DNA of 64,000 nucleotides. It comes from Jiangella gansuensis DSM 44835. GTDB taxonomy: Bacteria; Actinomycetota; Actinomycetes; Jiangellales; Jiangellaceae. Shown one piece after another: positions 21,349 through 39,721 of this stretch (its first letter is position 1; every line of letters begins with the position of its first letter). The translations under genes were made by a program, and so were the position numbers. Under the pieces are notes generated by a model. It did no database searches. It was given only the letters and a program-made list of their open reading frames with translations, and was not told the DNA's origin. Where the stretch lies: positions 907,090 to 971,089 of the forward strand of contig NZ_KI911782.1 in assembly GCF_000515395.1 (NCBI RefSeq). The letters are read 5' to 3'.

Positions 21349-21421
21349 GGGGCTGTGGCGCAGCTGGTAGCGCACCTCGTTCGCAACGAGGGGGTCAGGG
21401 GTTCGAGTCCCCTCAGCTCCA
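21349..21421 (+). tRNA. tRNA-Ala (anticodon CGC)
   Basis: A 73-nt cloverleaf. Acceptor GGGGCTG pairs with CAGCTCC (one G-T position as a wobble), the D arm is GCGC/GCGC, the anticodon stem is CCTCG/CGAGG around loop TTCGCAA (anticodon CGC), and the T arm is AGGGG-TTCGAGT-CCCCT. CCA is not encoded. A terminator hairpin follows 20 bases later. The accessory island begins immediately downstream, so this is its likely insertion point. Confidence 0.96.
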
Positions 21422-21441
21422 CTTCTTACATCCAGTCAGAC

Positions 21442-21471: not shown

Positions 21472-21515
21472 TTCGTTTCGGGGGTCACGATGGCGAGCGC
21501 ACGGATTCGGTCAGC

Positions 21516-22148: not shown

Positions 22149-22436
22149 AGCGCCGGATTCCGCCCAGGCCTTCAGCAACGGCGGCCGGGTCCAATTGACC
22201 ATTGTGCTCCTGATGTCGTCGTGGATGTCCAACGCAAGCGAGCACTTCGCTCGCCACGAGAGGAGGCTTTCTCTCCTGCCACCGCCATCGAGGACGTGTC
22301 GTACGACATCGACGATGGCGTGCGTGTTGTGGGCGTACGCATGGTCCCCGTCGAGGATGGTGTCCAGGCGAGCGTGCTGGCAGCGCACGCACATGCAACG
22401 CCAGTAGTGGCTCTCCGGAGAAAGGCTGATCGCCAT
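22137..22436 (-). CDS. hypothetical protein, 99 aa
   Basis: The ATG has GGAGAAGG 8 bases upstream, a good ribosome binding site that supports a real gene. The product is MAISLSPESHYWRCMCVRCQ and onward, with three cysteines in the first 20 residues and a His-rich middle (DGDHAYAHNTHAIVD). The cysteine group could bind a metal. It ends with a Trp-containing amphipathic tail. No family is recognised. It lies 33 bases downstream of the 187-aa gene on the same strand, so the two probably form an operon. Confidence 0.55.
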   Translation of the reverse strand: MAISLSPESHYWRCMCVRCQHARLDTILDGDHAYAHNTHAIVDVVRHVLDGGGRRESLLSWRAKCSLALDIHDDIRSTMVNWTRPPLLKAWAESGALLR

Positions 22437-22469
22437 GCTGACCTTCTCCGACAGGTGGTAGCTCAGCGC

Positions 22470-23033
22470 CTACGGAACCAGCACGGAGAAGTCATTGGAC
22501 ACTCGCGGGCCGCCCCTCGGAGGCATGATGTGGCGCAGGCTCGCGGTCGTTCCCATAGTGCTGAAGGCCGCGCCGGCAGCCAAGGCGCCTACCGCTGACT
22601 GATCTGTTCGTAGTACAGCCATTGGCGTCGGCGATTCGAGCAGATACAGGAAGCCGTGCACCGCATCTTTGGTTCGCAGCGGATCACCCACTGCACCGAG
22701 CATGACGGCGACCGGCCGGCCGTAGGAGTCGATGAGCGACCGAACGTACTCGGCGCCCTTGCCGAGCCAATATTCGTCCAGAGGTAGGGCCAGGATGAAT
22801 TGGCCTTGGGTATCGCCCTCAAAAGCCTCCGCATGTCGGAACAGAACATTCAGGTCGTCGTAGGCAGCCTGGTCGACGTAGCCGCTGTCGGTGAGCGCCC
22901 AGGTGAGTCCGTGGGCCCATTGTTCCTCGACCCAGCGCGTACTGAGGGGTGCCGGCCGTTGGCACGTGTCGTAGTCGTCCCAGTATGCCACGAAGCACCG
23001 ACAGTTGATCTTCAGGCGCGAGATGTGAAGCAC
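22470..23033 (-). CDS. hypothetical protein, 187 aa
   Basis: GTG start at 23033 without a clear ribosome binding site; a later GTG at 22991 is possible. The sequence opens with Cys-rich KINCRCFVAYWDDYDTCQRP and continues through LDEYWLGKGAEYVRSLIDSYGRPVAVMLGAVGD. It ends with small-residue stretches GALAAGAAFSTMGTTAS and PPRGGPRVSNDFSVLVP. Codon choice is less GC-biased than in the surrounding chromosome, consistent with acquired DNA. I do not recognise the family. It is divergent from the defence operon across 273 bases. Confidence 0.55.
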   Translation of the reverse strand: MLHISRLKINCRCFVAYWDDYDTCQRPAPLSTRWVEEQWAHGLTWALTDSGYVDQAAYDDLNVLFRHAEAFEGDTQGQFILALPLDEYWLGKGAEYVRSLIDSYGRPVAVMLGAVGDPLRTKDAVHGFLYLLESPTPMAVLRTDQSAVGALAAGAAFSTMGTTASLRHIMPPRGGPRVSNDFSVLVP

Positions 23034-23306
23034 GCAACGACGAGCCGAGCGAGGAAGCGGGCGCCGGCAGCAGGCTCAGATGTGACATAGGCGATGTGCT
23101 CGTCGAGTTGTGCTTACCGCGCGCCTACTGATAGGGCGCAGGTGCCAGCCATTGCCCCGGGAACATGGTTGGAGCATTAACCGCTCCCTGACCGAGACAT
23201 ACAGGTCGCTCCAGGCCGTACATCACCGCGGCCCTCCCTTTTGTGTCCTACATCCGACTGGCAAGATTCACCTATCGGTGGGGCGGACCGCAGAGAGGTG
23301 TGGCAA
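23034..23306. promoter_or_regulatory. intergenic region upstream of the defence-like operon
   Basis: 273 bases between divergent genes, A/T-richer than the chromosome average. No convincing gene is present. GAGAGGTG at about 23293-23300 is the ribosome binding site for the SNF2-like gene. TTGTGT near 23241 with AAGATT about 16 bases later could be a weak promoter, but the match is poor. Confidence 0.35.
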
Positions 23307-26228
23307 ATGGGGGACGATGAGCTGACGATCGCGCCTGGCTCGGTAGTAGTGATCCGTGACGAGGACTGGATCGTGACCGGCATCGAGGGCACGCCCGGCG
23401 GCCGTCGGCGCATCGACGTCGTCGGCCTCTCCGAACTGGTCCGTGAAACTGAGGCGACGTTCCTCGAAGAGCTTGAAACCAAGATCGATGTCCTCGACCC
23501 CCGCCGAGCCGTCCTCGTCGCCGACGACTCCCCTCGGTACAGGCGCACCAGGCTATGGCTGGAGGCTACCCTTCGCCGTACGCCGGTCCCGTTCGGCGAT
23601 CCAACCCTGCACGTTTCGCACACGATGCTGATCGACCCCCTGCAGTACCAGCGCAGAGCGGTTGCCCAGGCACTGTCGAAAGACAACCTGCGCCCGCGCA
23701 TTCTGATCGCGGATGCGGTCGGCCTCGGAAAGACTCTTGAGATCGGCATGGTCATCGCGGAGCTGGCGCGTCGTGGTCGAGCCGATCGGGTCCTCGTCGT
23801 CACGCCAAGGCATGTCCTTGAGCAGATGCAGCAGGAGCTGTGGGCCCGGTTCGCGTTGCCACTGGTCAGACTCGACTCAGGCGGCCTGCAGCGGGTCCGC
23901 CAAGTACTCCCGGCTTCCCGGAACCCGTTCACCTATTTCAAGCGCATCATCGTCTCGATTGACACGTTGAAAAGCCCACGCTACCGCGCCTACTTGGAGC
24001 AGCAGCGCTGGGACGTCGTGGTCATCGACGAGTCGCACAACCTCACCAATGTGGGCACCCTCAATAACGAGCTGGCTCGAGTGCTCGCCCCCAACACCGA
24101 GGCGCTCATCCTCGCGTCGGCGACACCCCACAATGGGAAGAAGGAGTCGTTCGGCGAGCTGCTGCGCCTGCTCGACGCGACGGCCGTGGGCCCCGATGGC
24201 GAGTACGACGTACGGGATGTCTCCAGGCTGTTCATCCGCAGGCACCGCCACTCCGAGGATGTCGCGGCCGAGGTGGGCAACCATTGGGCACTCCGGCCCG
24301 CACCGAAGATCGTCTCGGTGACGGCGTCCAAGGCCGAGGACGCGATCGCCGACGAGCTGTCCCGCGCCTGGTTGCACCCGGCGAGCGGCGCCTCTCCGTA
24401 CTCGGGCGCCACCACCGCCCTGTTCCCATGGACGCTCGCCAAGGCGTTCCTGTCGTCGTCGGCAGCACTGCACGCCACGGTCACCGAGCGGATCACGCGC
24501 ATCGGCGAGGCCACCACCGAAGGCCAACGCCGCGAATTGGCTGCGCTCGAACGGCTCGGCGAACTCGCCGTCGAGGGCATGACCGCTGACCGTGCGTCGT
24601 TCCGAGGAGCGGAGCCCGGCGGCAAGATCGCCGCCCTCGTCCATCACATCAAGGGCATCGGTGTCGCGCATGATTCGGGGACCCGAGTCGTGTTGTTCGC
24701 CGAACGCATCCCCACGCTGAACTGGCTCCGCGAGATCCTGCCGACCGCACTCGGCATGAAGGGTGACCAGTTCGCGATCCTGCACGGTCAGCTGTCCGAC
24801 GTCGAGCAGCAGCAGATCGTCGACGACTTCAAGAAGGCCACGTCACCGGTCCGCGTGCTCATCACTGGAGACGTCGCCAGCGAGGGTGTCAACCTGCACG
24901 CCCACTGCCACCATCTGGTGCATGTCGACATCCCGTGGAGCCTCATCCGCATCGAGCAGCGCAACGGCCGGATCGACCGGTATGGGCAACTACACCCGCC
25001 GCAGATCGCGGCCCTCGCACTCGTCCCGTCCGATGACCGTTTCAGCGGCGATATTCGCGTCCTGCAGCGACTACTGGCCAAGGAGCACGAGGCGCACACC
25101 ACCCTCGGCGACGCTGCCTCACTGATGGGGAAGCACTCCGTCGCTCTCGAAGAGGACGAGATCAAGAAGACCCTGGCCCGTGGCACGGACATCGACGAGG
25201 TCATCCCCGCCCCGCACACCGCGGACGTCGACGACCCGTTCGCCGCCTTCGATGCGCTGTTCACCGCGGCGGGCGACGACGCGCCGCCGCCACCGCCGGT
25301 GAGCGATACCTACGAGTTCTTCGCCACCGATCTCGCCTTCCTGGAGCACGCCCTGGCCGAGGCTTACGACGACCCGGCACGGCCGCCCGCCGACGACGGG
25401 CGGACACGTAGTGGTGGCGTCGGGTGGACGGAACACCGGGGGAGCGGACTGGTCGAGCTACGGCCGCCGCACGATCTGCGCACCCGCATGGATGCGCTGC
25501 CGCAGTCGTACGTCTCCGAGCGACGGGTCAAAGAGCGCCTGCTGCTGGCCACGTCGACGGAGGTCGCGAACCAGCACCTGCAGGCGGCACGCAACAGCGT
25601 CGGCGGCTCCACGTGGCCCGAGGCGCACTACCTGTCGCCGTTGCACCCGGTGCTCGACTGGGCCGCCGACAAGGTACTCGCCACGCGTGGCCGCAACGAG
25701 GTGTCAGTCGTGTACGGCGCGGTGGACGATCCGCTGGTGCTGGTTCTCGGCACGCTGATGAACAACCGCGGACAGGTGGTCAGCCGGCAGTACCTGACCG
25801 TGGTGTTCCCCGGCGGCGACCCCACCTTTCCGATCGTCACCGCACAAGCCGACCTGTCCTGCCTGGACCCGACCGGGCTGCGCGCCGGGGGGATCAACTC
25901 CGGAGCGGTCCAGATCACCGACCGCCACCGCGACCTGGTGCCGGCCGCCGTGGATCGGGCCACGCAGGAACTCGAACGCTCCGCCGATGACCACGTGGCG
26001 CAACTCCGCGAACGGATCGATACGTGGTCGCAACGTGCCAATGGCTGGCGGGACAAGGCCGAGCAACTCGAGCTCGAGCTGTTCGGTTCGGGACTGAGCA
26101 AGGTGCGTCGCCTCTCCGACCGCGTCTCGCAGGAGCAGGAGATCGCGGATTCGCTGCGGCCGGACCACCGGCTGGTCCGACCGCTCGTGGTTATCGTCCC
26201 CCAGCCCTCGGACGGCGGTGACGCATAG
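23307..26228 (+). CDS. SNF2-family helicase, DrmD-like
   Basis: 973 aa from an ATG with GAGAGGTG upstream; an earlier in-frame start at 23241 lacks one. SF2 helicase motifs are in order: I at residues 135-144 (DAVGLGKTLE), II at 241-244 (DESH), III SATPHNGKKESF, then VRVLITGDVASEGVNLHAHCHHLVHVD and VI IEQRNGRIDRYGQ near 550. The C-terminal 400 residues contain long helices and end in a KAEQLELELFG segment. This is the architecture of the SNF2-like DrmD of class 1 DISARM. The stop TAG is directly followed by the ATG of the methyltransferase gene, so they are co-expressed. Anti-phage function is inferred. Confidence 0.85.
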   Translation: MGDDELTIAPGSVVVIRDEDWIVTGIEGTPGGRRRIDVVGLSELVRETEATFLEELETKIDVLDPRRAVLVADDSPRYRRTRLWLEATLRRTPVPFGDPTLHVSHTMLIDPLQYQRRAVAQALSKDNLRPRILIADAVGLGKTLEIGMVIAELARRGRADRVLVVTPRHVLEQMQQELWARFALPLVRLDSGGLQRVRQVLPASRNPFTYFKRIIVSIDTLKSPRYRAYLEQQRWDVVVIDESHNLTNVGTLNNELARVLAPNTEALILASATPHNGKKESFGELLRLLDATAVGPDGEYDVRDVSRLFIRRHRHSEDVAAEVGNHWALRPAPKIVSVTASKAEDAIADELSRAWLHPASGASPYSGATTALFPWTLAKAFLSSSAALHATVTERITRIGEATTEGQRRELAALERLGELAVEGMTADRASFRGAEPGGKIAALVHHIKGIGVAHDSGTRVVLFAERIPTLNWLREILPTALGMKGDQFAILHGQLSDVEQQQIVDDFKKATSPVRVLITGDVASEGVNLHAHCHHLVHVDIPWSLIRIEQRNGRIDRYGQLHPPQIAALALVPSDDRFSGDIRVLQRLLAKEHEAHTTLGDAASLMGKHSVALEEDEIKKTLARGTDIDEVIPAPHTADVDDPFAAFDALFTAAGDDAPPPPPVSDTYEFFATDLAFLEHALAEAYDDPARPPADDGRTRSGGVGWTEHRGSGLVELRPPHDLRTRMDALPQSYVSERRVKERLLLATSTEVANQHLQAARNSVGGSTWPEAHYLSPLHPVLDWAADKVLATRGRNEVSVVYGAVDDPLVLVLGTLMNNRGQVVSRQYLTVVFPGGDPTFPIVTAQADLSCLDPTGLRAGGINSGAVQITDRHRDLVPAAVDRATQELERSADDHVAQLRERIDTWSQRANGWRDKAEQLELELFGSGLSKVRRLSDRVSQEQEIADSLRPDHRLVRPLVVIVPQPSDGGDA

Positions 26229-29200
26229 ATGGCGCGTTTCGACTCCGTCGTCGTCGGCGAGGAATGGATCTCCGAGCACTACCTCACCAGCGACGCCCGC
26301 AAGGACACGTTCCTCGCCCACGTCCTCAGGCTGCGCAAAACCTGGCAGGAGTACGAGGAACTCGGCAAATCCACTCCGCGATCGGACCTGACCGCCCGCG
26401 CGACCGACATCGCCGCCGCGGTTGCGGCGCTGGGCGACGTGACACCAGCTGCGACAGGCGACGAGGTCCACCGTCTGCACACCCTCCTACGCCGGGCGCT
26501 CCACCTGGACCGCGAGGCCGTCGACTGGCTGGCCGAGCGTTCTGGCGCCGAGATCCGTATCCCGGCGGCAGTCGCCCATCCGACTCCTACCGGCACCGCC
26601 CTGGTGATCCTTCAGGCGATGCCTGTCCACGCGGTGGAGGAGGTCCTGGACACCGACAGCGGGAGTGGCCGACTCCTCACTCCCGCACTCATCGACGGCA
26701 AGCCCGACGACGTCACCGCCCGCGTCGTCTCGACCGTCTTCCTCGCCGACGATCCGCCGCCGTTCGTCCTGGTGCAGGCCGGCCGATGGGCGCTGCTCGC
26801 CGAGCGCACTCGATGGCCGGAGGGGCGCTGGTTGGCCGTCGACCTCAGTCTCGTCGGGGAACGTCGCGACATCCGCAGCGGCGGTGAGATCGACCACGTC
26901 GCCGCACTCCTGGGCGGCGACACGCTGCTCCCCAGTGCCGACGGCAGCACGCTGTGGACCGCGATCCTCGACGAGTCTGTGCAGCACACGGTCGGTGTGT
27001 CCAAGGATCTGCGCGAGGGCATCCGGTTGTCGGTGGAGATCATCGCCAACGAGGTCGTCCGCCGGCGTCGCGGCCGCGGTCTGGCGGTCGAGGGCGTGTC
27101 CGGTCTTGCCGACGATCTCGCTCGCGAGTCGCTGCGGTTCCTCTACCGCATCCTGTTCCTACTCTATGCCGAGGCTGATCCGGAGCTCGGCGTCGTACCG
27201 TCGCGGACACCGGAGTACGAGAAGGGCTACGGCCTGGACCGGCTGCGCGACCTCACCCTCGTCGAGCTCACGTCCGAGCAGTCGAGGCACGGAACGCACC
27301 TGTACGCGTCGTTGCGCCGCCTGTTCGACCTCGTGGACACCGGCCACCCGTCCGAGGACGTCCCGTTCCACGCCCTGCGTGCCGACCTGTTCAAGAAGGA
27401 CGCGACCCGGCACATTGCCGAGGTGGGCCTGGGCAACGATGCGGTCCAGCAGGTTCTGCGGCACCTGCTGCTGACGAAGGCGACGAAGGGCCGGGACCGG
27501 GGCTTCATCTCCTACGCCGAGCTCGGTATCAATCAGCTCGGTGCCGTCTACGAGGGGTTGATGTCGTACTCCGGGTTCATTGCCGAGACCGATTTGTACG
27601 AGGTGGCGCCGGGCGGGAAACCCGAGAAGGGGACGTGGGTAGTGCCGGTCGACCGGGCCGGCGACATCGCTGACGACGATTTCGTGCGGGACGAGGACCC
27701 GGCCACCGGTGAGCCGCGACCCGTGATCCACCGGCAGGGCACGTTCGTGTACCGCCTGGCCAGCCGCGAGCGTCAACGCTCGGCGTCCTATTACACCCCG
27801 GAGGTGCTCACCCGGTCGGTGGTGAAGCACTCTCTCGCCGAACTGCTCGACCAGAACGATGAGACGACACCGGCGCTGGACATCCTGCGTATGACGGTGT
27901 GTGAGCCAGCTCTCGGCTCGGGGGCGTTCGCGATCGAGGCGGTCCGCCAGCTCGCGGCGAAGTATCTGGAACGCCGTCAGGAGGAACTCAGCGAGCAGAT
28001 CCCCGCCGAGGATTATCCGCGCGAGCTTCAACGGGTCAAGGCGTACCTGGCGTTGCATCAGGTGTACGGCGTCGACCTGAACGCCACCGCCGTCGAGCTG
28101 GCCGAGATATCGCTGTGGCTGGACACCATGCACGCCGGGCTGCAGGCGCCGTGGTTCGGCCTGCACCTGCGCCGGGGTGACTCACTGATCGGAGCGCGCC
28201 GCGCCGTCTACTCGCCGAGCAAGCACTTCACCAAGCGGGAGTGGCTCAAAGCCGTACCTCGGGACGTGCCGCTGCACGACACCGACGCGACAATGGACGG
28301 TGGTGTACACCACTTCCTCCTTCCGGCCATGGGCTGGGGTGCCGTCGCCGACACCGCCGAGGCCAAGCAGTATGCGCCTGAGGCCCGTGAGCGCTTGCGC
28401 GAGTGGCGGCGAGCGGTGCGATCGAACCCAACAAAGCGCGACCGTGACCGGCTGGTCCGGATGGCGCAGCGGGTCGAGACGCTGTGGGACTTCGCCCGAC
28501 GCCGCTTGGAGATCGCCGAGGCCGAGATCCGACGCCACATCGACGTGTGGGGGGCCGACGGCGAGCTGCCGGAGACAACCGGCGCCGTCACCCGGGAGGA
28601 CGTCGAACGTGTCCTCGAGGACGAGAACGGTGCCTACCGGCGGCTGCGCCGGATCATGGACGCCTGGTGCGCGCTCTGGTACTGGCCGGTGACACCTCGC
28701 ACCGATCCCGACTCCGGCGAGGAGATCAAACCGCCGACGTGGGACACGTGGCTCGACGGACTCGAAGCCGTGCTTGGTGTGCAGGCCAAGGAGACCGACC
28801 GTGACCGCAAGGGCCAGGCGGCATTCACCGGGAACCTCGACTGGCACGGCTTGGACGACGCGGAGGACCACGACCGTGGCTTCACCTCGACACAGCAGAT
28901 CGACCTGGCGAAGCAGAAGTACCCCTGGCTGCACGTCGCCGAACAGATCGCCCAGGAGCAAGGCTTCTTCCACTGGGAGCTCGACTTCGCCCCGGTGTTC
29001 GCCCGAGGCGGCTTCGACCTCCAGGTTGGCAACCCGCCCTGGGTCCGTCCCTTCTGGGATGAGCCCGCAGCTCTCGCCGAGTACGACCCGTGGTGGCAGC
29101 TGACCTCGAAGCCTGCCGAGCAGATCAAGCGCGAGCGGCGTGAGGTGACCCTCGCCCTCTCCGGCGCACTCGATGCCTTCCTCGACGAACGTGCAGCCCA

Positions 29201-30872
29201 AGCCGGGATGAACGAACACCTCGCCAGCGACGTCGATCGCCCAGTGCTGCGTGGCCTACAGCCGGACCTTTACCGCTGCTTCATGGAACGCACCTGGCGG
29301 TCCATGAGCCCGCAGGGCATCGCCGGGCTCATCCACATGGAGTCCCACTTTACCGAGCTTCGAGCAAATGGCCTGCGCCGGGAAGCCTACTCGCGCCTGC
29401 GTCGCCATTGGGCATTCAAGAACAACACCTACGTCTTCAGTGAGATCAGTGACAAGCGTAGTTTTGGCTTGCATATCTATGGTCAATCTCACGACGTGAG
29501 TTTCGTTCATGCTGGCTGGATCTATGATCCGTCTGTGATCGACCGATCCATGACTCACGATGGCTCCGGTGAAGCTCCGGGCGTACGTGATTTCGCTGAC
29601 CGCTGGGACGTCCGGCCGCATGCCGAACGTATCGTCCATGTCGATGAAACCGTACTCGGCACATGGTCCGCTCTGATTGACGAACCTGGAACGCCAGCGC
29701 GTGAGGCTCGGATGCTGTATCCGGTCAACCGCGCGAGTGCCGACGTTCTCGCGAAGATGGCCGGATCGCCAAGACTAGGTGATCTTGAATTCGAGTGGAC
29801 TGCAGGATGGCACGAGTCTGCCGACCGCAAGAGGGGCTATTTCGACGGCCGTTCCGCCACGCCGACGTCGTGGTCAGACGTCATACTGCAGGGTCCGCAC
29901 CTGACTGTGGCAAATCCGCTCTATCAACAGCCGAACGAGAATGCCACAGGTCGACAGGACACGACTGAGAACAATCTCGAACGTATACCGGCAGACTTCA
30001 TTCCACGGACGAACTACCAGCGAGCAAAGTCGTACCCGGAGTACATTTCCGGCTATCCCCGGTGGAGCGACCGCCCGAGCGCCGAGTACTTCCGCCTCGC
30101 CTGGCGCAGGATGGCGGACTCCGCGACAGTGCGAACCCTGCACGCCGCGATCATCCCTCCGGGACCGGCGCACGTCGACCTTATTCGGAGCGCACTTGTC
30201 GGCGCTGAATATTGCGACTTGGTGGTCGCCGCGGGATTATGGGTCTCATTGCCAGTGGACTTCTTAGTCAAGGCTTCTGAAACGAATGAACTCAAGCACG
30301 GGGTTGTTCAACGGTTTCCCCACATTCGGCGGCACCCAGTCGAGCAACAACTCGTTCTGCGGACGCTCCGGCTAAACTGTCTGGTGCGGCCGTACGCGCC
30401 CTTGTGGGAGGAACTGTTCGCTCAAGACTGGACGACCGACGTGTGGGCTCCGGGCGTTGGGCTGGACTCTTCGGTCAACATCGACAAACGGCAACTCGGC
30501 GATGTCGAGGCGGCGTGGTCGTGGGACACGCCGCTGCGCCGGGACGCCGACCGGCGGCAGGCGTTGGTGGAGATCGATGCGATCGTCGCCGTGATGCTGG
30601 GCATCACCGCCGACGAGCTGGTCACGATCTACCGGACCCAGTTCCCGGTACTGCAGAAGTACGAGCGGGAGGCCCTCTACGATGCACACGGCCGCCAGGT
30701 GCCGCGCGAGCTGGCGAAGGAGTACCGCAAGCACGAGGGTGCCATACCTGCCGAAGGGTTGACCGTCGCCGGCATGACCTATGCGACGCCGTTCCTCACG
30801 GTCGACCGCGAACGCGACTACCGGCTCGCCCACGACCACTTCAGCCGGCTTGCCGACGAGGCAGCGCCGTGA
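26229..30872 (+). CDS. Eco57I-type N6-adenine DNA methyltransferase, DrmMI-like
   Basis: 1547 aa; the ATG abuts the previous stop. About 520 N-terminal residues precede SYYTPEVLTRSVVKHSL. SAM-binding motif I follows at about residues 558-570 (CEPALGSGAFAIEAV) and the catalytic NPPW at 935-938 (FDLQVGNPPWVRPFW). The long gap between motifs and the C-terminal region fit Eco57I/type IIG-like and DISARM class 1 enzymes. It should methylate adenine to mark self DNA. Residues roughly 1055-1390, the likely target-recognition part, are encoded by distinctly lower-GC DNA (47% GC over 29461-29520). No separate PD-(D/E)XK motif was recognised at the N-terminus. Its GTGA overlap with the next gene implies co-translation. 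Confidence 0.87.
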   Translation: MARFDSVVVGEEWISEHYLTSDARKDTFLAHVLRLRKTWQEYEELGKSTPRSDLTARATDIAAAVAALGDVTPAATGDEVHRLHTLLRRALHLDREAVDWLAERSGAEIRIPAAVAHPTPTGTALVILQAMPVHAVEEVLDTDSGSGRLLTPALIDGKPDDVTARVVSTVFLADDPPPFVLVQAGRWALLAERTRWPEGRWLAVDLSLVGERRDIRSGGEIDHVAALLGGDTLLPSADGSTLWTAILDESVQHTVGVSKDLREGIRLSVEIIANEVVRRRRGRGLAVEGVSGLADDLARESLRFLYRILFLLYAEADPELGVVPSRTPEYEKGYGLDRLRDLTLVELTSEQSRHGTHLYASLRRLFDLVDTGHPSEDVPFHALRADLFKKDATRHIAEVGLGNDAVQQVLRHLLLTKATKGRDRGFISYAELGINQLGAVYEGLMSYSGFIAETDLYEVAPGGKPEKGTWVVPVDRAGDIADDDFVRDEDPATGEPRPVIHRQGTFVYRLASRERQRSASYYTPEVLTRSVVKHSLAELLDQNDETTPALDILRMTVCEPALGSGAFAIEAVRQLAAKYLERRQEELSEQIPAEDYPRELQRVKAYLALHQVYGVDLNATAVELAEISLWLDTMHAGLQAPWFGLHLRRGDSLIGARRAVYSPSKHFTKREWLKAVPRDVPLHDTDATMDGGVHHFLLPAMGWGAVADTAEAKQYAPEARERLREWRRAVRSNPTKRDRDRLVRMAQRVETLWDFARRRLEIAEAEIRRHIDVWGADGELPETTGAVTREDVERVLEDENGAYRRLRRIMDAWCALWYWPVTPRTDPDSGEEIKPPTWDTWLDGLEAVLGVQAKETDRDRKGQAAFTGNLDWHGLDDAEDHDRGFTSTQQIDLAKQKYPWLHVAEQIAQEQGFFHWELDFAPVFARGGFDLQVGNPPWVRPFWDEPAALAEYDPWWQLTSKPAEQIKRERREVTLALSGALDAFLDERAAQAGMNEHLASDVDRPVLRGLQPDLYRCFMERTWRSMSPQGIAGLIHMESHFTELRANGLRREAYSRLRRHWAFKNNTYVFSEISDKRSFGLHIYGQSHDVSFVHAGWIYDPSVIDRSMTHDGSGEAPGVRDFADRWDVRPHAERIVHVDETVLGTWSALIDEPGTPAREARMLYPVNRASADVLAKMAGSPRLGDLEFEWTAGWHESADRKRGYFDGRSATPTSWSDVILQGPHLTVANPLYQQPNENATGRQDTTENNLERIPADFIPRTNYQRAKSYPEYISGYPRWSDRPSAEYFRLAWRRMADSATVRTLHAAIIPPGPAHVDLIRSALVGAEYCDLVVAAGLWVSLPVDFLVKASETNELKHGVVQRFPHIRRHPVEQQLVLRTLRLNCLVRPYAPLWEELFAQDWTTDVWAPGVGLDSSVNIDKRQLGDVEAAWSWDTPLRRDADRRQALVEIDAIVAVMLGITADELVTIYRTQFPVLQKYEREALYDAHGRQVPRELAKEYRKHEGAIPAEGLTVAGMTYATPFLTVDRERDYRLAHDHFSRLADEAAP

Positions 30873-33800
30873 CGTCGCTGCTGCCGTCGCTGCAGGCGGC
30901 CGACCTGCGGCGTGCCCTCACCGCGTACCTGTCTACGACGTTCGCGCTCACCGACGACGACGTCCGGACCGCACTCGAAGCGTTCCTTGCCGACCCCGAC
31001 AACGGCATCTTCCGCGGACCCTATGTGCGGCTACGGCTGCCGTTCCGGCCCGCCGACGGCACCTGGTCGGTCCCGCTGGACTGGTACCCGCCCGAGTGGA
31101 CGCCGTACGGTCACCAGGCGCGGGCATTCGAGCGGCTGTCCAGCAAGTATGCCGCGCCATTGCCGACGCTGGTGACCACCGGCACCGGTTCCGGTAAGAC
31201 CGAGGCGTTCCTCTACCCGGTTATCGACCATGCCCTGCGCACCCGTAGCGCCGGTCAGCGCGGCATCAAAGCGCTCATCTTGTATCCGATGAATGCGCTG
31301 GCCAATGACCAGGCCGGCCGGATAGCCACACTTCTGTCCGAGGACCCGCGTCTCGGCGGCCTGACCGCCGGCCTTTACACGGGCGTGGGCGGCTCGCGCA
31401 CGAAAGTCAGCAAGGACGGACTCATCACCGACCGCACGATCATGCGGGACGAGCCGCCGGACATTCTGCTGACCAACTACAAGATGCTCGACCAGCTGCT
31501 GCTCCGGTCCGACGACGTGGCGTTGTGGGATGGTGCGCCCGAGTCGCTGACATATCTCGTCCTGGACGAGTTCCATACGTATGACGGCGCCCAGGGTACC
31601 GATGTCGCCATGTTGCTGCGGCGCCTCGGCGCGGCGCTGGGGATCGCCCGCGACGGAGCGCCGCTCGGTGACGTCACTCCTGTCGCTACGTCGGCCACGC
31701 TCGGAACGACGGCGGGCGACACACGTCGCGCAGGAGACACGGCGGGCACGGAGGCGATGCGCGAGTTCGCCGCCACCGTGTTCGGCCGGTCCATGGATCC
31801 GGACGCGGTCATCACCGAGGACCGGGTCACGGTCGACCAGTGGCAGGAGGAGCGACGCCGGGCCGACGCAGCCGCCCGCTCCGAAACGGGAGACCGAGTC
31901 TCCTACCGTCCACGAGACCTCGTCGATGCGGCAACGACCGCGACGGCGATCCGGCAGGCCGGGCCGGATCCAATCGCCGCCATCAATGCGCTGATCGCAC
32001 TGGTCGTCGAACGCGCTAACAGAGACCAGACCGAGCTGACGTCTCGCGAGGTCCGGCGGATCCGCGAATCGCGCGCACTGAGCGAGGTCGTCACCGATCA
32101 TCCGCTCACGCTGGCACTGCTCGAGCATGCTCAGCGGCCGGTGGCATTGAGCGAGCTCGCCAGCGCCCTCTTTCCGTCCGACACCAGCGTGGGCCGCGCC
32201 GACGGGGTTGCCATCGTCGATGCCTATCTGGGCCTGCTGTCGCTGATCCGTGCCGACCTGCTCGATGGCCACGAGGCGCGACGGTTCCTCGGCGTCGACG
32301 TGCAACTGTGGATCCGCGAGGTGTCCCGCGTGGACCGGCTCGTGTCGTCGACGCCACGGTTCCGCTGGGGTGACGACGGCATGGCCGGCTACGACGCAGG
32401 GCTCTACCAGCCGGCGATCTACTGCCGGAACTGCGGACGTTCGGGGTGGGGTTCGCTGCGCAGTGTCACAGGCTCGAACCTCGACACTGACGCCAAGTCT
32501 GCGCGACAGGCGACACTCACCGGCAATGATCGATACCGCGCCCTGATCTTCGCCGGGGGCGAGGCGGCCGCCGTCGACCAGAGCGGCGGCTCAGTCACCG
32601 TCGACGGACTGTATTGGCTGGACCTGCGAAGCCGAGAGGTACTGGCCGAATCGCCATCCGACGACGACGAGGAGCTTCGGCACGTCCCTGTCCTCACCGA
32701 TTGGGACGGTCGGTTCAGACCTCGCGATGAAGTCTGCCCGTCCTGTCAGCAGAAGGATTCGATCCGATTCCTGGGGACTCGCTCCTCCACCTTGGCATCG
32801 GTCAGCCTGAACGCACTGTTCGGATCGGAGTCGCTGGAATCGGCGGAGAAGAAGACGCTGCTGTTCACGGACAGTGTGCAGGACGCCGCCTACACAGCGG
32901 GATTCGTCCAGGCGCGATCACACACCATGAGCCGAAGGTCAGTCGTCCGGTCCGCCTTAAGCTCCGATCCGATGCCACTACCCGATGTCGCGGCAGACAT
33001 GATGGCCGCCGCAGGCGAGGACCCCCACGCCCGGTACGCGCTCATCCCGCCCGAGCTCGCCGACCGCAAGCGCTTCGCTCGCTACTGGACGATGGAGGGC
33101 GACCGGCGGGAAGAGCGGGCTGCCCGTCACGCGGTGAAGGCTCGCCTGGACTTCGACCTGGCCCTGGAGTTCGGCCTCCAGTCACGCACTGGACGGACAC
33201 TGGAGCTGACGGGCTCCGCCGTGGCCGAGGTCGACGTGGGCACCAGCGACCGGCTCCGACGCGCCGCCGCGGAAGCCCTGTCGAAAGCACGCGAGCAGCA
33301 CAGCTTCTCGCCCGAGTTCGATGAGCTGTTGGGCGTGGGCATCGACGCCACCCTCGTGTCTGGTTGGGCGCGCGGTGTGCTCGAGCGCATGCGCGTGCAA
33401 GGTGGAGTCCACCATCCCTGGCTCGACGCCTACCTGCGCAGCGACGGGAATCGGTGGTTTCTGCTTGGCGGCCGGCGACGCCGCGACCGCGACGACGGCA
33501 TGCCCGCGTTCCCCCGAGGTCGCCCCTCGCCCGCATTCCCCACCACGTCGGCTGCCCGCGAGAGCCTCGATAGTGTCACCGGGCACGCATCCTGGTACGC
33601 GCGATGGGCGGTCCGCCAGCTCGGCACCACACCCCGCGACGGTGGCGTCATCACCGGCGCCTTCCTGGCCCGCGCCGCCCAGGAGGGATGGCTCACGGAG
33701 ACCGCCACCGACTCCGGCGCTCGGGTGTATCGCATCCCGCCCGATCTGGTGGTGGTTCACATTCCCGGCGACGGCGCTTTGGCCGACGGTGAGCATGCGC

Positions 33801-36800
33801 TGCGATGCTACGTGTGCCACACGGTCACGCCGGGATCGCAGGCGACCATCACCGATCTCGACGGCGCGGCCTGCCTACGTCAAGGTTGCCCGGGCCGCCT
33901 GCACAGGCACGCACTGGCTGCCGACTATTACCGCGAGCTGTACGACAGCAGTCGGATCCGGCGGGTCGTTGCCCGCGAACACACGTCACTCCTGCCGGAC
34001 AAGGTGCGCCTGGAGCACGAGGAGGCGTTCAAGTCTGGCCGTGGCCCCAACGTCCCCAATGTGCTCGCCGCGACGCCGACGCTGGAGCTGGGCATCGACA
34101 TCGGCGACCTCTCCACGGTCATGCTCGGATCGCTGCCCCGCGAGGTGGCGTCGTACCAGCAACGGGTGGGGCGGGCCGGTCGCCTGACTGGGAACGCGCT
34201 CGTCCTCGGGTACGTACGCGGTCGAGGTCAGAACCTTCAGCGGCTCAACGAGCCCACGTCGTTGATCGACGGCGAAATCCGACCGCCGGCCACCTATCTG
34301 GACGCGATCGAGATCCTTCAGCGCCAGTACGTCGCCTTCCTGATCGACCAGCGAGTCCGCAGCGGTGTACCCGATCCGCCGTCCGGGCGCGGTGCCACCC
34401 GTCAGGTTCTCGCCTCCGGTTGGGACACCGGAACCTGGATCGGTGACCTGCTCTCCGACGCCCGCATCAAAGCCAATGAGTACACGTCCCGATTTCTGGG
34501 ACTCTTCGGGAACCTCGTCGCACCCGACACCGCCGCCACCTTGCGCGCGTGGGCCGGCGTTGAGCTCCCGGACAACGAGGTCAGCGGAGTGGAGCACATC
34601 TTTCAATCGGCGATCCGCTCGTACCAGCACGAGTTGGACGACCTGGGGCGACGGTCCGGCGCCTTGGCGGACTCGCTGCCCGAACTCATCCAGGCAGCTG
34701 AACGTGCCACCGCCACCGACGAGGACCAGCGCAACCGTCGTGCGGCCGAGGCCGAGCAACGCGCCCTCGACATGCGCCGGGCTGCCCTGCGTGGTCAATA
34801 CTGGATTAACGCACTGGAGGAACGCGGTGTCCTGCCGAACTACACGCTGCTCGACGACACCGTGCAACTCGATGTCTCACTGCGCTGGTACGACCATGAC
34901 ACCGGAGACTTCCACCACGAGCCGCAGACCTACCAGCGTGGTGCCTCGGTCGCTCTCACCGACTTCGCACCCGGCGCCACGTTCTACGCCCAGAGCGTCG
35001 CGATCGCGATCGACGCCGTCGACGTCGGCCCCGGCCTTGACATGGTGCGCGAGCGTTGGATCGTATGCGCGCGGTGCGGATGGTCCGTGGCCGAGCAGGC
35101 CACCGTAGGTCCGCCGTCACAGGCATGCCCCCGGTGTGGCGACGCCGCGGTTCGTGACGTGGGTCAGCGTCTCGACGTCATCCCCCTCGAACGAGTCTCA
35201 GCTGAGGTCTTCCGCGACGAGGCGCTGATATCCGATGGCAACGACGATCGCGTGCAGACCTCGTTCTCGGTTGTCCCCCTCGTCGACGTCGACCCAGCGC
35301 GGGTGTCGGGCGCGTGGCGCCTGGACGGGTATCCGTTCGGCGCCGAGTACGTCCGGGAGTGCCTGGTGCGCTGGGTCAATCTCGGACTGGCGCAGCGTTC
35401 CGGCTCCGAACGGGTGCTGGCGGGCAATGAGATCCGGGCGCCCCTGTTCCGGGTATGTCCAGCTTGTGGGGTGGTCCCGTCGGCGCAGCGCCGCGACGAG
35501 AACGAGGCACGTCACCGTGGCTGGTGTCCACACCGTCGGGACCTCGATATCGACTGGCAGACGGTTGCGCTTGGGCGCAGCCTCCGGACACAGGCCGTCC
35601 AGCTCCTCATCCCGCCGCACTTCACCCGAGACACCTTCGCCGGCGCCTCATTCCGGGCGGCTCTGCTGCTTGGTCTGCGGGAAGTCATCGGTGGCGCGCC
35701 AGACCATCTCGACGTGGTAGAGGCTCACGCCCCGGTCGATGGTCAGGACCGGATCGTGCTCGTTCTCCACGACACCGTGCCTGGCGGAACCGGGTACCTG
35801 GCTGACTTCGCCCGACCGAGCCGCGTGCACGACGTGCTGTCCGCGGCACTGGACGTGCTCTCCACCTGCTCGTGCCGCGAGGAACAGGTGCTGGCGTGCC
35901 ACCGCTGTCTGATGCCGTTCGCGCCACCACAGATGGTCGAGCACACGTCACGTGCCCGTGCCGAACAACTGCTCCGGGAGATCCTGGACTCCGGCCGGGA
36001 GAACGCCGGCGCCTCGGACGACTCGCCGTGGTCGGTCACCGAGATCTCGTCGCTGACCGACGTGGTGCTGGAATCGACGGAGAGCCACCTTGAACAACGG
36101 TTCCGCGCCACGCTGGTCGACGCACTCCGTGCGCGCGGCGCAGACATTCGTGAAGAGCCCCACGTAGATGGCACGGTCGTGCACATCGGCGTGCCCGGAG
36201 ACATGCGCCGCCAGTGGGCGCTGCGACCACAACCCCGATTGCACGGCACGCGGCCCGACTTCGTGTTGATGACAGAGGACACATCCGTCCCGGCCATGTA
36301 TATCTACACCGACGGACGGCGCTTCCACTCCCATCCTCGGGCGAACAATCTCGCCGACGACGCCGAGAAGCGCGCGATTCTGCGGCAAGCTGGGCATGTC
36401 GTGTGGGCGGTGACCACGGCCGATCTCGATGCCTTCGAGGCCCGTACCGAAGGCGCGGCTGTTCCACCGCCTACGTGGTTCACCGACCACGTCCGGACGA
36501 ACCTCGCCCGCCTGCGCGGTCGGGAACTCGTGTCGGCCGGATCGGTCGGCGACGATGTGATAACCGCCGATGCGGTGACTCAGATCTTGACATGGGTCGC
36601 GAATCCTGAGCCCGCTCGGTGGAGATCGCTGGCATCGATTCTGCCGCTAGCTTTCATGGATCAGAACCGGCGCGAATGGAACCTCGAACGGCTGCCGGGT
36701 GTAGTGCTCGCAGCGCTTGCCGGTGCACCCGCACCGCCGACCGATCCCGGCGGTCTCGCCGGCTGGTGGTGGCAAGACTCGACCTGCGTGATCGCGGCCG

Positions 36801-37336
36801 CCACACCGGCGCCACCTGCGCTAGACATCACGACAATCTTGGCCGTCGATGACACCAGCGCCGCGCTGGAAGCTGACGAGTCGGGCGCTGCTTGGCGTAC
36901 GTGGCTCGCGCTCTCCAATATCCTCGGCTTCGCCGCGCGGCCACCGCTGATCACCACCCAGTCACTCCTTGCCGGACCTGCGGTGTCACACCCGCCTCGC
37001 GCCGTCGACTACACGTTCACACCACCGGACGACACCGTCGCCGTCGTGTCCCCCGCCTGGCAGTCCTTGTTCGACACCGCCGTCGACGAGATCGAACTTC
37101 GCGTCCTGCGCGCCCTCGCAGAAGCCGGCGTCCCGCTACCGGAGCAAGGGCACGAGACCGGGACGGGCGTCACCATCGATATCGCCTGGCCGAATCACCG
37201 CGTGGCCGTCGTATTCTCACCGGTCCAGGGCCACGAACTGGCCGGCGAGGGGTGGACTGTCGCCGGTCTTTGGGACGATGACCTACCGGCTCGGGTGAAG
37301 ACGTTACTCGGCACAGATACCACAGGAGGCGGCTGA
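30869..37336 (+). CDS. giant DEAD-type helicase with DUF1998-like region and nuclease-like tail
   Basis: 2155 aa, starting at the GTG of a GTGA overlap. Helicase motifs: Walker A TGTGSGKTEAF (residues 104-114), DEFH (233-236), ATSATLG, and TPTLELGIDIGD with QQRVGRAGR (1097-1105). Several Cys pairs look like zinc sites: CRNCG, CPSCQ, CYVC, CARCG with CPRCG, and CPACG. The cluster CSCREEQVLACHRC near 1667-1680 is typical of DUF1998. Residues about 1750-1850 (RPDFVL, then YIYTDGRRFH and an EKRAILRQAGHVVWAV helix-strand) resemble a Vsr/DUF559-like nuclease fold. A further 300 residues end in a second similar-looking unit. It could combine DrmA and DrmB of DISARM in one chain, or be a DruE-like protein of Druantia. 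Confidence 0.83.
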   Translation: MTSLLPSLQAADLRRALTAYLSTTFALTDDDVRTALEAFLADPDNGIFRGPYVRLRLPFRPADGTWSVPLDWYPPEWTPYGHQARAFERLSSKYAAPLPTLVTTGTGSGKTEAFLYPVIDHALRTRSAGQRGIKALILYPMNALANDQAGRIATLLSEDPRLGGLTAGLYTGVGGSRTKVSKDGLITDRTIMRDEPPDILLTNYKMLDQLLLRSDDVALWDGAPESLTYLVLDEFHTYDGAQGTDVAMLLRRLGAALGIARDGAPLGDVTPVATSATLGTTAGDTRRAGDTAGTEAMREFAATVFGRSMDPDAVITEDRVTVDQWQEERRRADAAARSETGDRVSYRPRDLVDAATTATAIRQAGPDPIAAINALIALVVERANRDQTELTSREVRRIRESRALSEVVTDHPLTLALLEHAQRPVALSELASALFPSDTSVGRADGVAIVDAYLGLLSLIRADLLDGHEARRFLGVDVQLWIREVSRVDRLVSSTPRFRWGDDGMAGYDAGLYQPAIYCRNCGRSGWGSLRSVTGSNLDTDAKSARQATLTGNDRYRALIFAGGEAAAVDQSGGSVTVDGLYWLDLRSREVLAESPSDDDEELRHVPVLTDWDGRFRPRDEVCPSCQQKDSIRFLGTRSSTLASVSLNALFGSESLESAEKKTLLFTDSVQDAAYTAGFVQARSHTMSRRSVVRSALSSDPMPLPDVAADMMAAAGEDPHARYALIPPELADRKRFARYWTMEGDRREERAARHAVKARLDFDLALEFGLQSRTGRTLELTGSAVAEVDVGTSDRLRRAAAEALSKAREQHSFSPEFDELLGVGIDATLVSGWARGVLERMRVQGGVHHPWLDAYLRSDGNRWFLLGGRRRRDRDDGMPAFPRGRPSPAFPTTSAARESLDSVTGHASWYARWAVRQLGTTPRDGGVITGAFLARAAQEGWLTETATDSGARVYRIPPDLVVVHIPGDGALADGEHALRCYVCHTVTPGSQATITDLDGAACLRQGCPGRLHRHALAADYYRELYDSSRIRRVVAREHTSLLPDKVRLEHEEAFKSGRGPNVPNVLAATPTLELGIDIGDLSTVMLGSLPREVASYQQRVGRAGRLTGNALVLGYVRGRGQNLQRLNEPTSLIDGEIRPPATYLDAIEILQRQYVAFLIDQRVRSGVPDPPSGRGATRQVLASGWDTGTWIGDLLSDARIKANEYTSRFLGLFGNLVAPDTAATLRAWAGVELPDNEVSGVEHIFQSAIRSYQHELDDLGRRSGALADSLPELIQAAERATATDEDQRNRRAAEAEQRALDMRRAALRGQYWINALEERGVLPNYTLLDDTVQLDVSLRWYDHDTGDFHHEPQTYQRGASVALTDFAPGATFYAQSVAIAIDAVDVGPGLDMVRERWIVCARCGWSVAEQATVGPPSQACPRCGDAAVRDVGQRLDVIPLERVSAEVFRDEALISDGNDDRVQTSFSVVPLVDVDPARVSGAWRLDGYPFGAEYVRECLVRWVNLGLAQRSGSERVLAGNEIRAPLFRVCPACGVVPSAQRRDENEARHRGWCPHRRDLDIDWQTVALGRSLRTQAVQLLIPPHFTRDTFAGASFRAALLLGLREVIGGAPDHLDVVEAHAPVDGQDRIVLVLHDTVPGGTGYLADFARPSRVHDVLSAALDVLSTCSCREEQVLACHRCLMPFAPPQMVEHTSRARAEQLLREILDSGRENAGASDDSPWSVTEISSLTDVVLESTESHLEQRFRATLVDALRARGADIREEPHVDGTVVHIGVPGDMRRQWALRPQPRLHGTRPDFVLMTEDTSVPAMYIYTDGRRFHSHPRANNLADDAEKRAILRQAGHVVWAVTTADLDAFEARTEGAAVPPPTWFTDHVRTNLARLRGRELVSAGSVGDDVITADAVTQILTWVANPEPARWRSLASILPLAFMDQNRREWNLERLPGVVLAALAGAPAPPTDPGGLAGWWWQDSTCVIAAATPAPPALDITTILAVDDTSAALEADESGAAWRTWLALSNILGFAARPPLITTQSLLAGPAVSHPPRAVDYTFTPPDDTVAVVSPAWQSLFDTAVDEIELRVLRALAEAGVPLPEQGHETGTGVTIDIAWPNHRVAVVFSPVQGHELAGEGWTVAGLWDDDLPARVKTLLGTDTTGGG

Positions 37337-37340
37337 CGCG

Positions 37341-39569
37341 ATGGCCTCGGTCACCATGTCGAAACAGTTCACAAAGGACATCGATGTCGACGGGTCGTTG
37401 AAAAACCGGGCGTGGGACTTCGTCCGCAAGGTAATGAATGATCCCACCGCTCCGGGCCTGCACATCGAGCCGATCGCCGGTTCGCGTGATCCTCGTGTGC
37501 GCACCGGCCGGGTCAACGATGGCTACCGAGCCGTGATGTTCCTCGTCCGCGACGATCCCGAGCAGGCGTACGTCCTGGCGGCCATCAAACAGCACGACGA
37601 CGCCAACCGATACGCCGAGCGTGCGGTCTTGCGCACGAACCCCGTGAACGGTGTCCTGGAGGTACTCGAGGACATCGACGAGCAGGTGACCGGCACAGTA
37701 TCCGCGTCGACGCCGATCGCGCGTCAGGCTACCGAGCCGGTCGGACCGTTGGCGTCGTTCCAGGCAATGGAATTCGAGGAGATTGGGATCACTCCGCGCT
37801 TCGCCGCGGCGGCGATAGCGGCCGCCGACGAGGACGCGCTTCTCGATGCGCTCCATGGCGCACCGTCGTGGCAAGCGGACGTGTTGCTCTCCGTGGCTAC
37901 CGGTATTGCGATCGAGGACGCGCTCGAGAACGTCGGTGTGCAACGCCTCGACAAAGTTCCGCGATCAACAGACATCGATACCGCGCTCGCACAGCCAGGT
38001 TCACAGATGGACTTCGTCACCGTGCACAGCGACGATGCGCTCCGCGAGGTTCTCGAGGGCCCGTTCGAGGCATGGCGCACATTCCTACATCCCGAACAGC
38101 GACAGTACGCGGAGCGCCGAACCTATAACGGGGCATTCCGGCTTCGCGGAGGCGCGGGAACGGGCAAGACCGTCGTCGCCATCCACCGGGCCCGCGCGCT
38201 CGCCCGCCGCTCTGGCTCGCGCATCGTCCTAACGACGTATACGACCACCCTGGCGAAAAACCTCGCTCGCGACCTCGACGCACTCGACCCGTCGGTCCAG
38301 ACGGGCGGGCCAGTCGGATCGGACGGCGTTGTCGTCCGTGGCGTTGACAAGCTCGCCAGAGAAGTTCTCTATGCCGTGGACTCGCGCGTGTTTGAGAAGA
38401 TCGACTCGCCCCTGCTCAACGCCGGTCCGCGCGGTCTTAGCCCGCTTGGTGACGTCGATGACCGCAATCTCTGGCAGGACGTGATCGACCAGGCTGGCGT
38501 CGACCTTCCCCCGGAACTCGCGCGACCCGACTTCCTACGGTCGGAGTACCGAATGGTGATTCTCGGCCAGCAGATCGACTCTTCCGCGACCTATGCCCGG
38601 GCGCCGCGGCCGGGACGTGGCACGCGTCTTGGGCGCGCCCAGCGCCTCGCCGTGTGGTCGCTGGTCGAAACCTATCGCCGTCGGCTCGCGATGAAACGGC
38701 AGGCGAGCTTCCCCGAACTGGCCGCACTCGCCGCCATGGCACTCGACACCCACTTCGAGCTCACCGGGGAACGGCTGGCCGACCACGTCGTGATCGACGA
38801 GGCACAGGATCTGCACGCCGGCCATTGGCGGCTCCTCCGCGCGCTCGTGGCCGAGGAGTCGAACGACCTCTTCATCTGTGAGGATTCGCACCAACGGATC
38901 TATGGCGAGAAGGTGGTGCTGAGCAGATTTGGCATCGCGGTACGCGGTCGATCCCGCCGGCTCACCCTCAACTACCGGACCACGGCGCAGAATCTCTCCT
39001 TTGCCATCGGCCTGCTCGAGGGCCACGACGTCACCGACCTTGAAGGGGAACCGGAGACGATGGTCGGATACCGGTCCCTGATGAACGGTCCGGCGCCCAA
39101 CGTAGTCGCGTGCAGCAGCATGAGCGACGAACTCGACGAGGTCGCCGCCCGGGTGAAGGCGTGGCAGACAGACGATGCTCTGGAGCCGCACACAATTGGC
39201 GTACTGGCGCGAAGCGCGCGGACCCGGGACCTGATACAACGTGGCCTCACCGACCGGGGTGTGCCCGTACACGCTGTCGTCGGCGACGAATCGTGGACAG
39301 GTAAGGCGCCGAGCCTACTGACCATGCACCGCGCCAAGGGCCTGGAGTTCCGCAAGGTAATTCTGGTCGGTATCGACGAGAACCAGATTCCCTCCATCCG
39401 CGCGCTAAACGGCATGCCGCCGGACGAGCGCGACGACGTCGCCAACCGCGAGCGTTTCCTGCTCTACGTCGCAATGACGCGTGCCCGAGAGGAACTCGTT
39501 CTCACCTGGCATGGCAAACCCTCTGGATTCCTCGACCCTCTGCCTACGGACCGGGGGGAGAGCAGATGA
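37341..39569 (+). CDS. UvrD-type SF1 helicase with N-terminal RelE-like domain
   Basis: 742 aa, ATG with GGAGG about 11 bases upstream and 4 bases after the previous stop. Residues about 5-95 look like a RelE/ParE-superfamily fold: a helix WDFVRKVMND, then HIEPI, RTGRVNDGYRAVMFLVRD and AYVLAAIKQHDDANRYAER. SF1 motifs follow: Walker A GGAGTGKT (270-277), DEAQDLH (486-492), EDSHQRIYGEK, LNYRTT, TMHRAKGLEFRKVILVG and YVAMTRAREELVLTW. It is therefore likely an active 3'-5' helicase or translocase. It closes the operon in the place where DISARM normally has the phospholipase-D protein DrmC. Whether the RelE-like part cleaves RNA is unknown. Confidence 0.85.
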   Translation: MASVTMSKQFTKDIDVDGSLKNRAWDFVRKVMNDPTAPGLHIEPIAGSRDPRVRTGRVNDGYRAVMFLVRDDPEQAYVLAAIKQHDDANRYAERAVLRTNPVNGVLEVLEDIDEQVTGTVSASTPIARQATEPVGPLASFQAMEFEEIGITPRFAAAAIAAADEDALLDALHGAPSWQADVLLSVATGIAIEDALENVGVQRLDKVPRSTDIDTALAQPGSQMDFVTVHSDDALREVLEGPFEAWRTFLHPEQRQYAERRTYNGAFRLRGGAGTGKTVVAIHRARALARRSGSRIVLTTYTTTLAKNLARDLDALDPSVQTGGPVGSDGVVVRGVDKLAREVLYAVDSRVFEKIDSPLLNAGPRGLSPLGDVDDRNLWQDVIDQAGVDLPPELARPDFLRSEYRMVILGQQIDSSATYARAPRPGRGTRLGRAQRLAVWSLVETYRRRLAMKRQASFPELAALAAMALDTHFELTGERLADHVVIDEAQDLHAGHWRLLRALVAEESNDLFICEDSHQRIYGEKVVLSRFGIAVRGRSRRLTLNYRTTAQNLSFAIGLLEGHDVTDLEGEPETMVGYRSLMNGPAPNVVACSSMSDELDEVAARVKAWQTDDALEPHTIGVLARSARTRDLIQRGLTDRGVPVHAVVGDESWTGKAPSLLTMHRAKGLEFRKVILVGIDENQIPSIRALNGMPPDERDDVANRERFLLYVAMTRAREELVLTWHGKPSGFLDPLPTDRGESR

Positions 39570-39721
39570 AGGTGAGCCGAACGCGATCGACCAGAGGCCG
39601 AGCTGCTACATCGGTCAGGGTTCTGTCACGAGGGTAGGTGACGGCCGACTTGTAGCGCCGGAAGGAGGCTGTCTCTGTCGAAACCCCAGCTCAAGAGGAT
39701 TGCTGCGACGTCGGTCTCATG

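Follow-up and report, generated by a model that had tools for sequence, protein, structure and literature searches.

Identity of the four-gene operon

We analyzed a 64,000-nucleotide stretch of the Jiangella gansuensis DSM 44835 genome (contig NZ_KI911782.1, positions 907,090 to 971,089 of the forward strand; hereafter the window, numbered from its first letter), in which four consecutive genes, here named armA to armD, almost certainly encode an ARMADA Type II anti-phage system, as judged from sequence comparison. The four open reading frames (ORFs), of 973, 1547, 2155 and 742 amino acids, all lie on the plus strand with junctions of 0 bases, a 4-base overlap and a 4-base gap (Table 1), which bears out the compact same-strand operon described in an earlier note made from the DNA letters. 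Pfam finds SNF2/Helicase_C in the first protein, an Eco57I-type methylase in the second, DEAD, Helicase_C and MZB in the third and UvrD in the fourth. MZB is the DUF1998-type zinc domain, and armC encodes seven CxxC pairs; the domain assignments of the earlier note are thus confirmed.

Table 1. Features of the operon and of the left border of its genomic slot (window coordinates).
Feature	Position	Strand	Basis
tRNA-Ala(CGC), left border of variable slot	21349..21422	+	ARAGORN; homology break at 21422
armA, BrxHII/RapA-like (DrmD-like) SNF2 helicase, 973 aa	23307..26228	+	E. coli ArmA match; Walker A K and DEXH D
armB, PglX/YeeA-like adenine methyltransferase, 1547 aa, NPPW motif	26229..30872	+	E. 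coli ArmB match
armC, YprA/DruE-like DEAD helicase with MZB/DUF1998 zinc domain, 2155 aa	30869..37336	+	E. coli ArmC match
Predicted Vsr-type (PD-(D/E)xK-like) nuclease domain of ArmC, residues ~1735-1870	36071..36478	+	Conserved residues; fold matches
Possible second Vsr/DUF559-like domain of ArmC, residues ~2068-2151	37070..37321	+	Fold matches
armD, GajB-like UvrD helicase with N-terminal RelE-like domain, 742 aa	37341..39569	+	E. coli ArmD match
Predicted RelE/YoeB-fold domain of ArmD, residues ~1-100	37341..37640	+	AlphaFold2 model; structure matches

ARMADA, ArmABCD in its Type II form, is an anti-phage system described by Bell et al. in a 2025 preprint and tested in Escherichia coli (PMC12458937). 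Type II genes follow the order BrxHII/RapA-like helicase, PglX-like methyltransferase, YprA/DruE-like DUF1998 helicase and GajB-like UvrD helicase, the last of these with a RelE-like domain at its N-terminus (PMC12458937). As comparison locus we used the ARMADA II system of E. coli ATCC 8739 (NC_010468.1), one of the two strains assayed in that work. The window proteins pair one-to-one with ArmA to ArmD of this strain at 30-35% identity and 328-744 bits: ArmA at 33% (448 bits over 938 columns), ArmB at 35% (744 bits), ArmC at 30% (693 bits over 2250 columns) and ArmD at 33% (328 bits). The E. coli genes are similarly packed, with gaps of +2, -1 and -4. The armA frame is open from 23241; the ATG at 23307 was taken as its start because residue 9 counted from there (residue 31 from 23241) aligns with residue 7 of the E. 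coli protein.

Eight residues were mutated in the E. coli system, six changes abolishing defence and two reducing it (PMC12458937). The window and ATCC 8739 retain all eight, as does every row of our alignments (22 rows for ArmA, 21 for ArmB, 19 each for ArmC and ArmD). They correspond to the Walker A lysine and DEXH aspartate of armA, G563 and the NPPW N935 of armB, K110 and D233 of armC, and K276 and D486 of armD. The published numbering is that of NCTC 12900, and ATCC 8739 has identical letters at the same numbers.

Gene order, predicted RelE-fold N-terminus, mutated residues and one-to-one homology are thus all present, and the operon is a further copy, in an actinobacterium, of an already described system and not a new kind of system. 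The composition that the earlier note had called unusual consists of the features that define ARMADA II (PMC12458937), and the same four genes already bear a name, an outcome that the earlier note had listed as refuting its own reading. Some points weigh against the assignment to ARMADA II. The window proteins share only 30-35% identity with the tested E. coli systems; two of the published changes, ArmD D454N and ArmB G605A, caused only partial loss of defence; and the mutants described in the parts of PMC12458937 consulted include none in the RelE or Vsr domains.

The likeness to ARMADA II extends over the four genes, their order, strand and tight junctions, the domain make-up, the mutated residues, the RelE-GajB fusion and a position beside a tRNA gene; the Vsr-type C-terminus of ArmC is probably also common to the window and E. 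coli. The window copy differs in being actinobacterial, in adjoining tRNA-Ala, not tRNA-Phe or tRNA-Leu, and in showing neither an integrase nor DruH, ZorA or ZorB matches in the flanking ORFs that were scanned. ARMADA Type I likewise has a YprA-like helicase, a BrxHII-like helicase and a PglX-like methyltransferase, but the strict order ending in a RelE-GajB helicase is stated for Type II (PMC12458937). Among the PADLOC 2.0.0 matches there is no ARMADA family, and the parts of the operon are scattered over DrmD, DruE, type IIG and GajB labels. The available portion of PMC12839542, on BREX-related systems, mentions neither ARMADA nor UvrD, DUF1998, DrmA or Druantia.

These scattered labels correspond to other possible readings of the operon. 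The earlier note had proposed a class 1 DISARM variant in which DrmA and DrmB are fused and DrmC is replaced by a RelE-UvrD protein. The operon does contain DrmD-like and DrmMI-like proteins: armA has its best matches among DrmD models (295.5 bits in PADLOC, 321.9 in NCBIfam), armB matches DrmMI with up to 186.4 bits, and genes of both kinds are common to ARMADA and class I DISARM (PMC12458937). The 321.9 bits of armA, however, do not reach the NF038317 (DrmD) cut-off of 610, and armC scores 287.9 bits with a DruE3 model versus 61.4 with the best DrmA model listed and 20.4 with NCBIfam DrmAL, whose cut-off is 999. The profile searches suggested by the earlier note thus returned low or sub-threshold DrmA and DrmD scores and a match of armC to DruE3. 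Class 1 DISARM has a separate DrmA, a DUF1998 DrmB and a phospholipase D (PLD) DrmC (PMC12458937), none of which occurs here, whereas a single 2155-residue chain of the window carries both the helicase and the MZB domain. The PLD motif HxKx4D is absent from the four operon proteins and from all six frames of 21423-39721, as the earlier note had observed for the operon. DISARM class 1 membership is ruled out by the one-to-one match with the ARMADA II proteins, whose four genes already form a named system, and we consider the fused variant highly improbable. What survives of that proposal is the kinship with DISARM and Druantia, the single-chain DruE-type helicase and the RelE-UvrD protein in the place of DrmC; the unnamed DISARM variant itself does not.

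The same DruE3 matches could suggest a system akin to Druantia type III but with additional genes, the shared component being a DruE-like YprA helicase. Yet armC scores 693 bits with E. coli ArmC and 111 bits, over the best segment, with DruE3 from the same ATCC 8739 island, a margin that rules out Druantia type III membership. Druantia type III has only two genes, DruE and DruH, and carries PLD domains on DruE (PMC12458937, PMC13192584), specifically on DruE3 in PMC12458937, and the operon lacks the PLD motif. No DruH appears among the best 25 families for each of the other operon proteins, and neither DruH nor ZorA nor ZorB is matched among ten flanking ORFs. This reading is barely conceivable beside the assignment to ARMADA II.

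Conservation of the gene order

In a sample of 393 genomes from the class of the window, 38 (counting that of the window) contain an armB relative at E 1e-100. From the other 37 we retrieved 20 loci, most of them among the top scorers. Of these, 19 have all four genes on one strand in the order A-B-C-D; the twentieth (L043) reaches the end of its contig after armA-armB. In IMG/VR, six loci have armC relatives, and five of them carry all four genes in order, counting one (L085) in which the locus edge truncates armA; the other (L086) breaks off before armA. The survey of gene order called for by the earlier note therefore came out in favor of conservation. A search of the genome contigs with ArmD returned only four close relatives, which stand outside these counts.

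This conservation also bears on whether armB might be a type IIG restriction-modification enzyme lying beside helicase genes by chance. Such a reading draws on a match of 1311 bits to the PADLOC family REase_MTase_IIG (PDLC03611), but in 19 of the 20 loci armB occurs together with the other three genes. Residues 1-195 of armB lack any invariant column, and the eight columns within residues 1-190 in which 19 or more of the 21 rows agree contain no D, E or K, so that no conserved N-terminal nuclease site is seen. The type IIG reading was rejected on these two grounds, gene order and the absent N-terminal site, and we give it next to no credence; armB as the methyltransferase of ARMADA II is the reading we retain. 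A sequence search of the PDB with armB gave no match at E 0.001.

Two of the 19 ordered loci (L051 and L054) have 5-6 kilobases (kb) of additional sequence separating armB from armC. Stretches of several kb lie at this junction in four loci altogether (L051 9141-15093, L054 5595-10660, L085 6616-10001 and L086 3141-10001). Their contents, by reading of the sequence, are regulator-like genes in L051, an AAA-ATPase-like gene and an adjoining gene in L054, and an ATPase-like protein of 1834 residues in L086. The armB/armC junction may be a repeated insertion point. In another of the 19, armB of genome G145 is broken by a transposase-like ORF (L050 7536-8534), presumably of IS30 type, and in Arthrobacter sp. 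OVS8 both armB and armD (L069 526-1788 and 10001-12210) appear split into shorter frames. Six contigs catalogued as viral in IMG/VR (L085-L090) bear ARMADA II genes.

Of 5426 complete E. coli genomes, 525 contain DNA that matches ATCC 8739 armD, at 532 places of which 22 are on plasmids. With window ArmD as query, 34 plasmid records match at E 1e-40, eight of them with at least 80% cover. ARMADA II is thus not rare.

Predicted domains of ArmC and ArmD

In a sequence search of the PDB, armC matches DruE-like, YprA and DEAD-box chains with a best E of 4.5e-38. A BrxA-like helical insertion after RecA1 and a zinc-binding barrel in RecA2 are the shared mark of its helicase branch (PMC12458937), and the armC CxxC pairs at 519 and 623 may belong to this feature.

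Beyond the helicase core, E1742, D1797, D1815, H1820 and D1831 are identical in all 19 ArmC rows, a set that we take to resemble the EDxHD/Vsr-type catalytic set. A model of residues 1690-2155, built from four sequences (mean predicted local distance difference test score, pLDDT, 70.7), was compared with known structures by VIA-align. In the region of these residues it matches BsoBI (Z 7.1, root-mean-square deviation (rmsd) 3.3, 128 aligned), I-Bth0305I (Z 6.4, rmsd 2.9, 97 aligned) and Vsr (Z 5.5, rmsd 3.7, 114 aligned). Near its end, model residues 379-462 match ngo0050 (Z 6.8), PvuRts1I (5.6) and AbaSI (5.3). The Pfam family MTES_1575 is weakly matched in 5 of 16 ArmC C-termini at E 0.05, the window protein reaching 20.6 bits against a cut-off of 38.2.

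Two results tell against a nuclease assignment. Frataxins, Mediator and a mitochondrial ribosome chain (6.3, at model residues 379-462) score Z 5.1-6.3 with the same model, and because unrelated folds reach similar values the fold matches are only suggestive; a Foldseek search of the C-terminus gave no useful match (best E 0.54). The findings agree, nevertheless, with the published description of the ArmC C-terminus as a 'predicted active Vsr' followed by inactivated domains (PMC12458937). On its conserved residues and modeled fold, the putative Vsr-type domain is predicted to be an active nuclease, and the second C-terminal domain is, by its sequence, probably inactive. The nuclease that appeared to be missing from the operon would then probably be this Vsr-type domain fused to ArmC, and not an HKD phospholipase.

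For armD, GajB models match in PADLOC beside the Pfam UvrD domains. The RelE-like N-terminus claimed in the earlier note is upheld as a predicted structure, although no Pfam RelE match is found at E 0.1 and a sequence comparison of the domain with the PDB gives a single chance-level match (E 1.5). An AlphaFold2 model of the N-terminal 240 residues, built from five sequences, has a mean pLDDT of 79.8, with block means of 85-92 over residues 21-110; the first two blocks average 80 and 63. Residues 1-94 superpose on YoeB (Z 9.6, rmsd 3.0) and on Thermus RelE (Z 9.4, rmsd 2.2), with 84 residues aligned in each case, and YafQ is matched too. We predict a RelE/YoeB fold for this region.

The catalytic set of YoeB comprises E46, R65 and H83, and window ArmD has E43, R63 and H85 at similar spacing. 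Of the 19 ArmD rows, 13 have E at position 43, 18 have R at position 63 and 15 have H at position 85. Neither E43 nor H85 is present in four rows (L049, L052, L053 and L055), and E43 alone is missing from L048, classes that hinge on the alignment, L049 having an H one column off. Row L044 has nothing before residue ~71 in the frame used, and tblastn locates its N-terminus as a separate piece. These patterns raise the possibility, which we hold to be doubtful, that the domain exists in two versions, one with a YoeB-like E/R/H set and one without E and H in a divergent actinobacterial branch, in which case it would be a genuine ribonuclease or sensor of nucleic acids that continues to evolve, and not a dead clamp fold.

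The tRNA-Ala slot

The operon begins 1.9 kb past a tRNA-Ala(CGC) gene. Eleven congeneric genomes were searched for the corresponding slot and ten were used, G012 being excluded with its flanks on two contigs. In all ten, unbroken DNA homology from moeA stops at 21422, the end of the tRNA gene, where ARAGORN finds a tRNA-Ala(CGC); its last stretch is patchy in one (L077), and another (L073) has a separate 64% match to 21578-22934 further along. On the right, a RelA/SpoT-like gene starts at 39722 in the window. In G008, 337 bases lie between the end of the moeA-tRNA match and the match to 39722, a near-empty site. From moeA to an SNF2 gene the distance is 25.2 kb in the window, and among the ten relatives it ranges from 6.9 to 33.9 kb.

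Ten proteins, drawn from six slots, were scanned with PADLOC (the slots of G005, G008, G013 and G014 were left out). The slots hold a type I restriction endonuclease (G009, 1137 bits), a GajB/RTasHel-like helicase (181 bits) with a weak type III restriction endonuclease (35.5 bits; G011), MzaC (693.5) and a DrmMII/type II cytosine methylase (298; G015), DndC (635.5) and DndD (753.9; G006), and DrmA (322; G007); in G010 one protein has MkoA/MkoC-like matches (180) and another has none. Single-gene matches of this kind are no proof of complete systems, and the slot is likely a defence hotspot. The slot, 21423-39721, has a guanine-plus-cytosine content of 66.5%, against 71.2% for the window outside it. 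ARMADA islands are located at tRNA genes (PMC12458937), and a variable slot of lower GC content next to a tRNA gene fits that account.

A search of 20900-43500 (seed 12) revealed no direct repeat of at least 16 bases in which the tRNA-Ala gene takes part; shorter repeats would escape. Pfam finds no integrase among the ten flanking ORFs, only two of the 16 ORFs of at least 60 amino acids (armA frame included) that overlap 21423-23300 being scanned there, so that a broken integrase could escape. Beside the tRNA gene, in the region 21462-22934, lies an ORF of 228 amino acids with no Pfam or PADLOC match. Together with the DNA that follows, it has a 64% identical counterpart in the G010 slot (L073 4382-6071), where two longer ORFs stand together; the second ORF of the pair looks shortened in the window. 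To the right of the slot, the SNF2-family gene at 42999-46358 receives DpdE (752.7 bits) and ZorD labels from PADLOC but looks resident, as all 12 genomes compared within the genus have it.

Discussion

ARMADA II of E. coli protected against 13 of 80 phages, and all four genes were needed (PMC12458937). Infected cells stayed intact and metabolically quiet, with lysis still occurring at the highest phage doses in liquid, and mutation of motor or methylase motifs led to full or partial loss of protection (PMC12458937). The ArmC relative DruE is a DNA-cleaving protein that loads on 3' single-stranded DNA (PMC13192584), and a review groups ARMADA with the systems that employ DNA modification and whose mode of restriction is unknown (PMC12904381).

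We infer that the window copy is active in its actinobacterium. In the scheme that we favor, ArmB would methylate adenines in a host motif and so set a self mark, and ArmA, a RapA/SNF2-type motor, would track along DNA and help to deliver or license the target. ArmC would load on phage DNA that is being replicated or has been processed, at its 3' single-stranded tails, unwind it with the YprA-type core and cut it with the C-terminal Vsr-type nuclease, acting as a helicase-nuclease effector. ArmD, a UvrD motor with a RelE-fold domain that might serve as a ribonuclease or as a binding module, would remodel DNA and may cut RNA. Defence of this kind would be direct and not suicidal. Methylation as the self mark, the order of the steps and the roles of the Vsr and RelE domains are the parts of this scheme that we infer.

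A real defence system was here recognized by eye from raw sequence, at a locus where a 2023 library, PADLOC 2.0.0, scatters the ARMADA II parts. With this copy the system gains an actinobacterial member whose active sites are conserved and whose tRNA-Ala slot is occupied by other defence genes in the congeners scanned. New in this analysis are that tRNA-Ala(CGC) slot, with its other defence genes in congeners, and the two patterns of candidate catalytic residues in the RelE domain. The system itself is already described; what merits further work is the part played by its RelE and Vsr domains, together with the hotspot. If the doubtful proposal of a functional RelE domain were true, that domain would make ARMADA a two-layer defence, combining attack on DNA with cutting of RNA.

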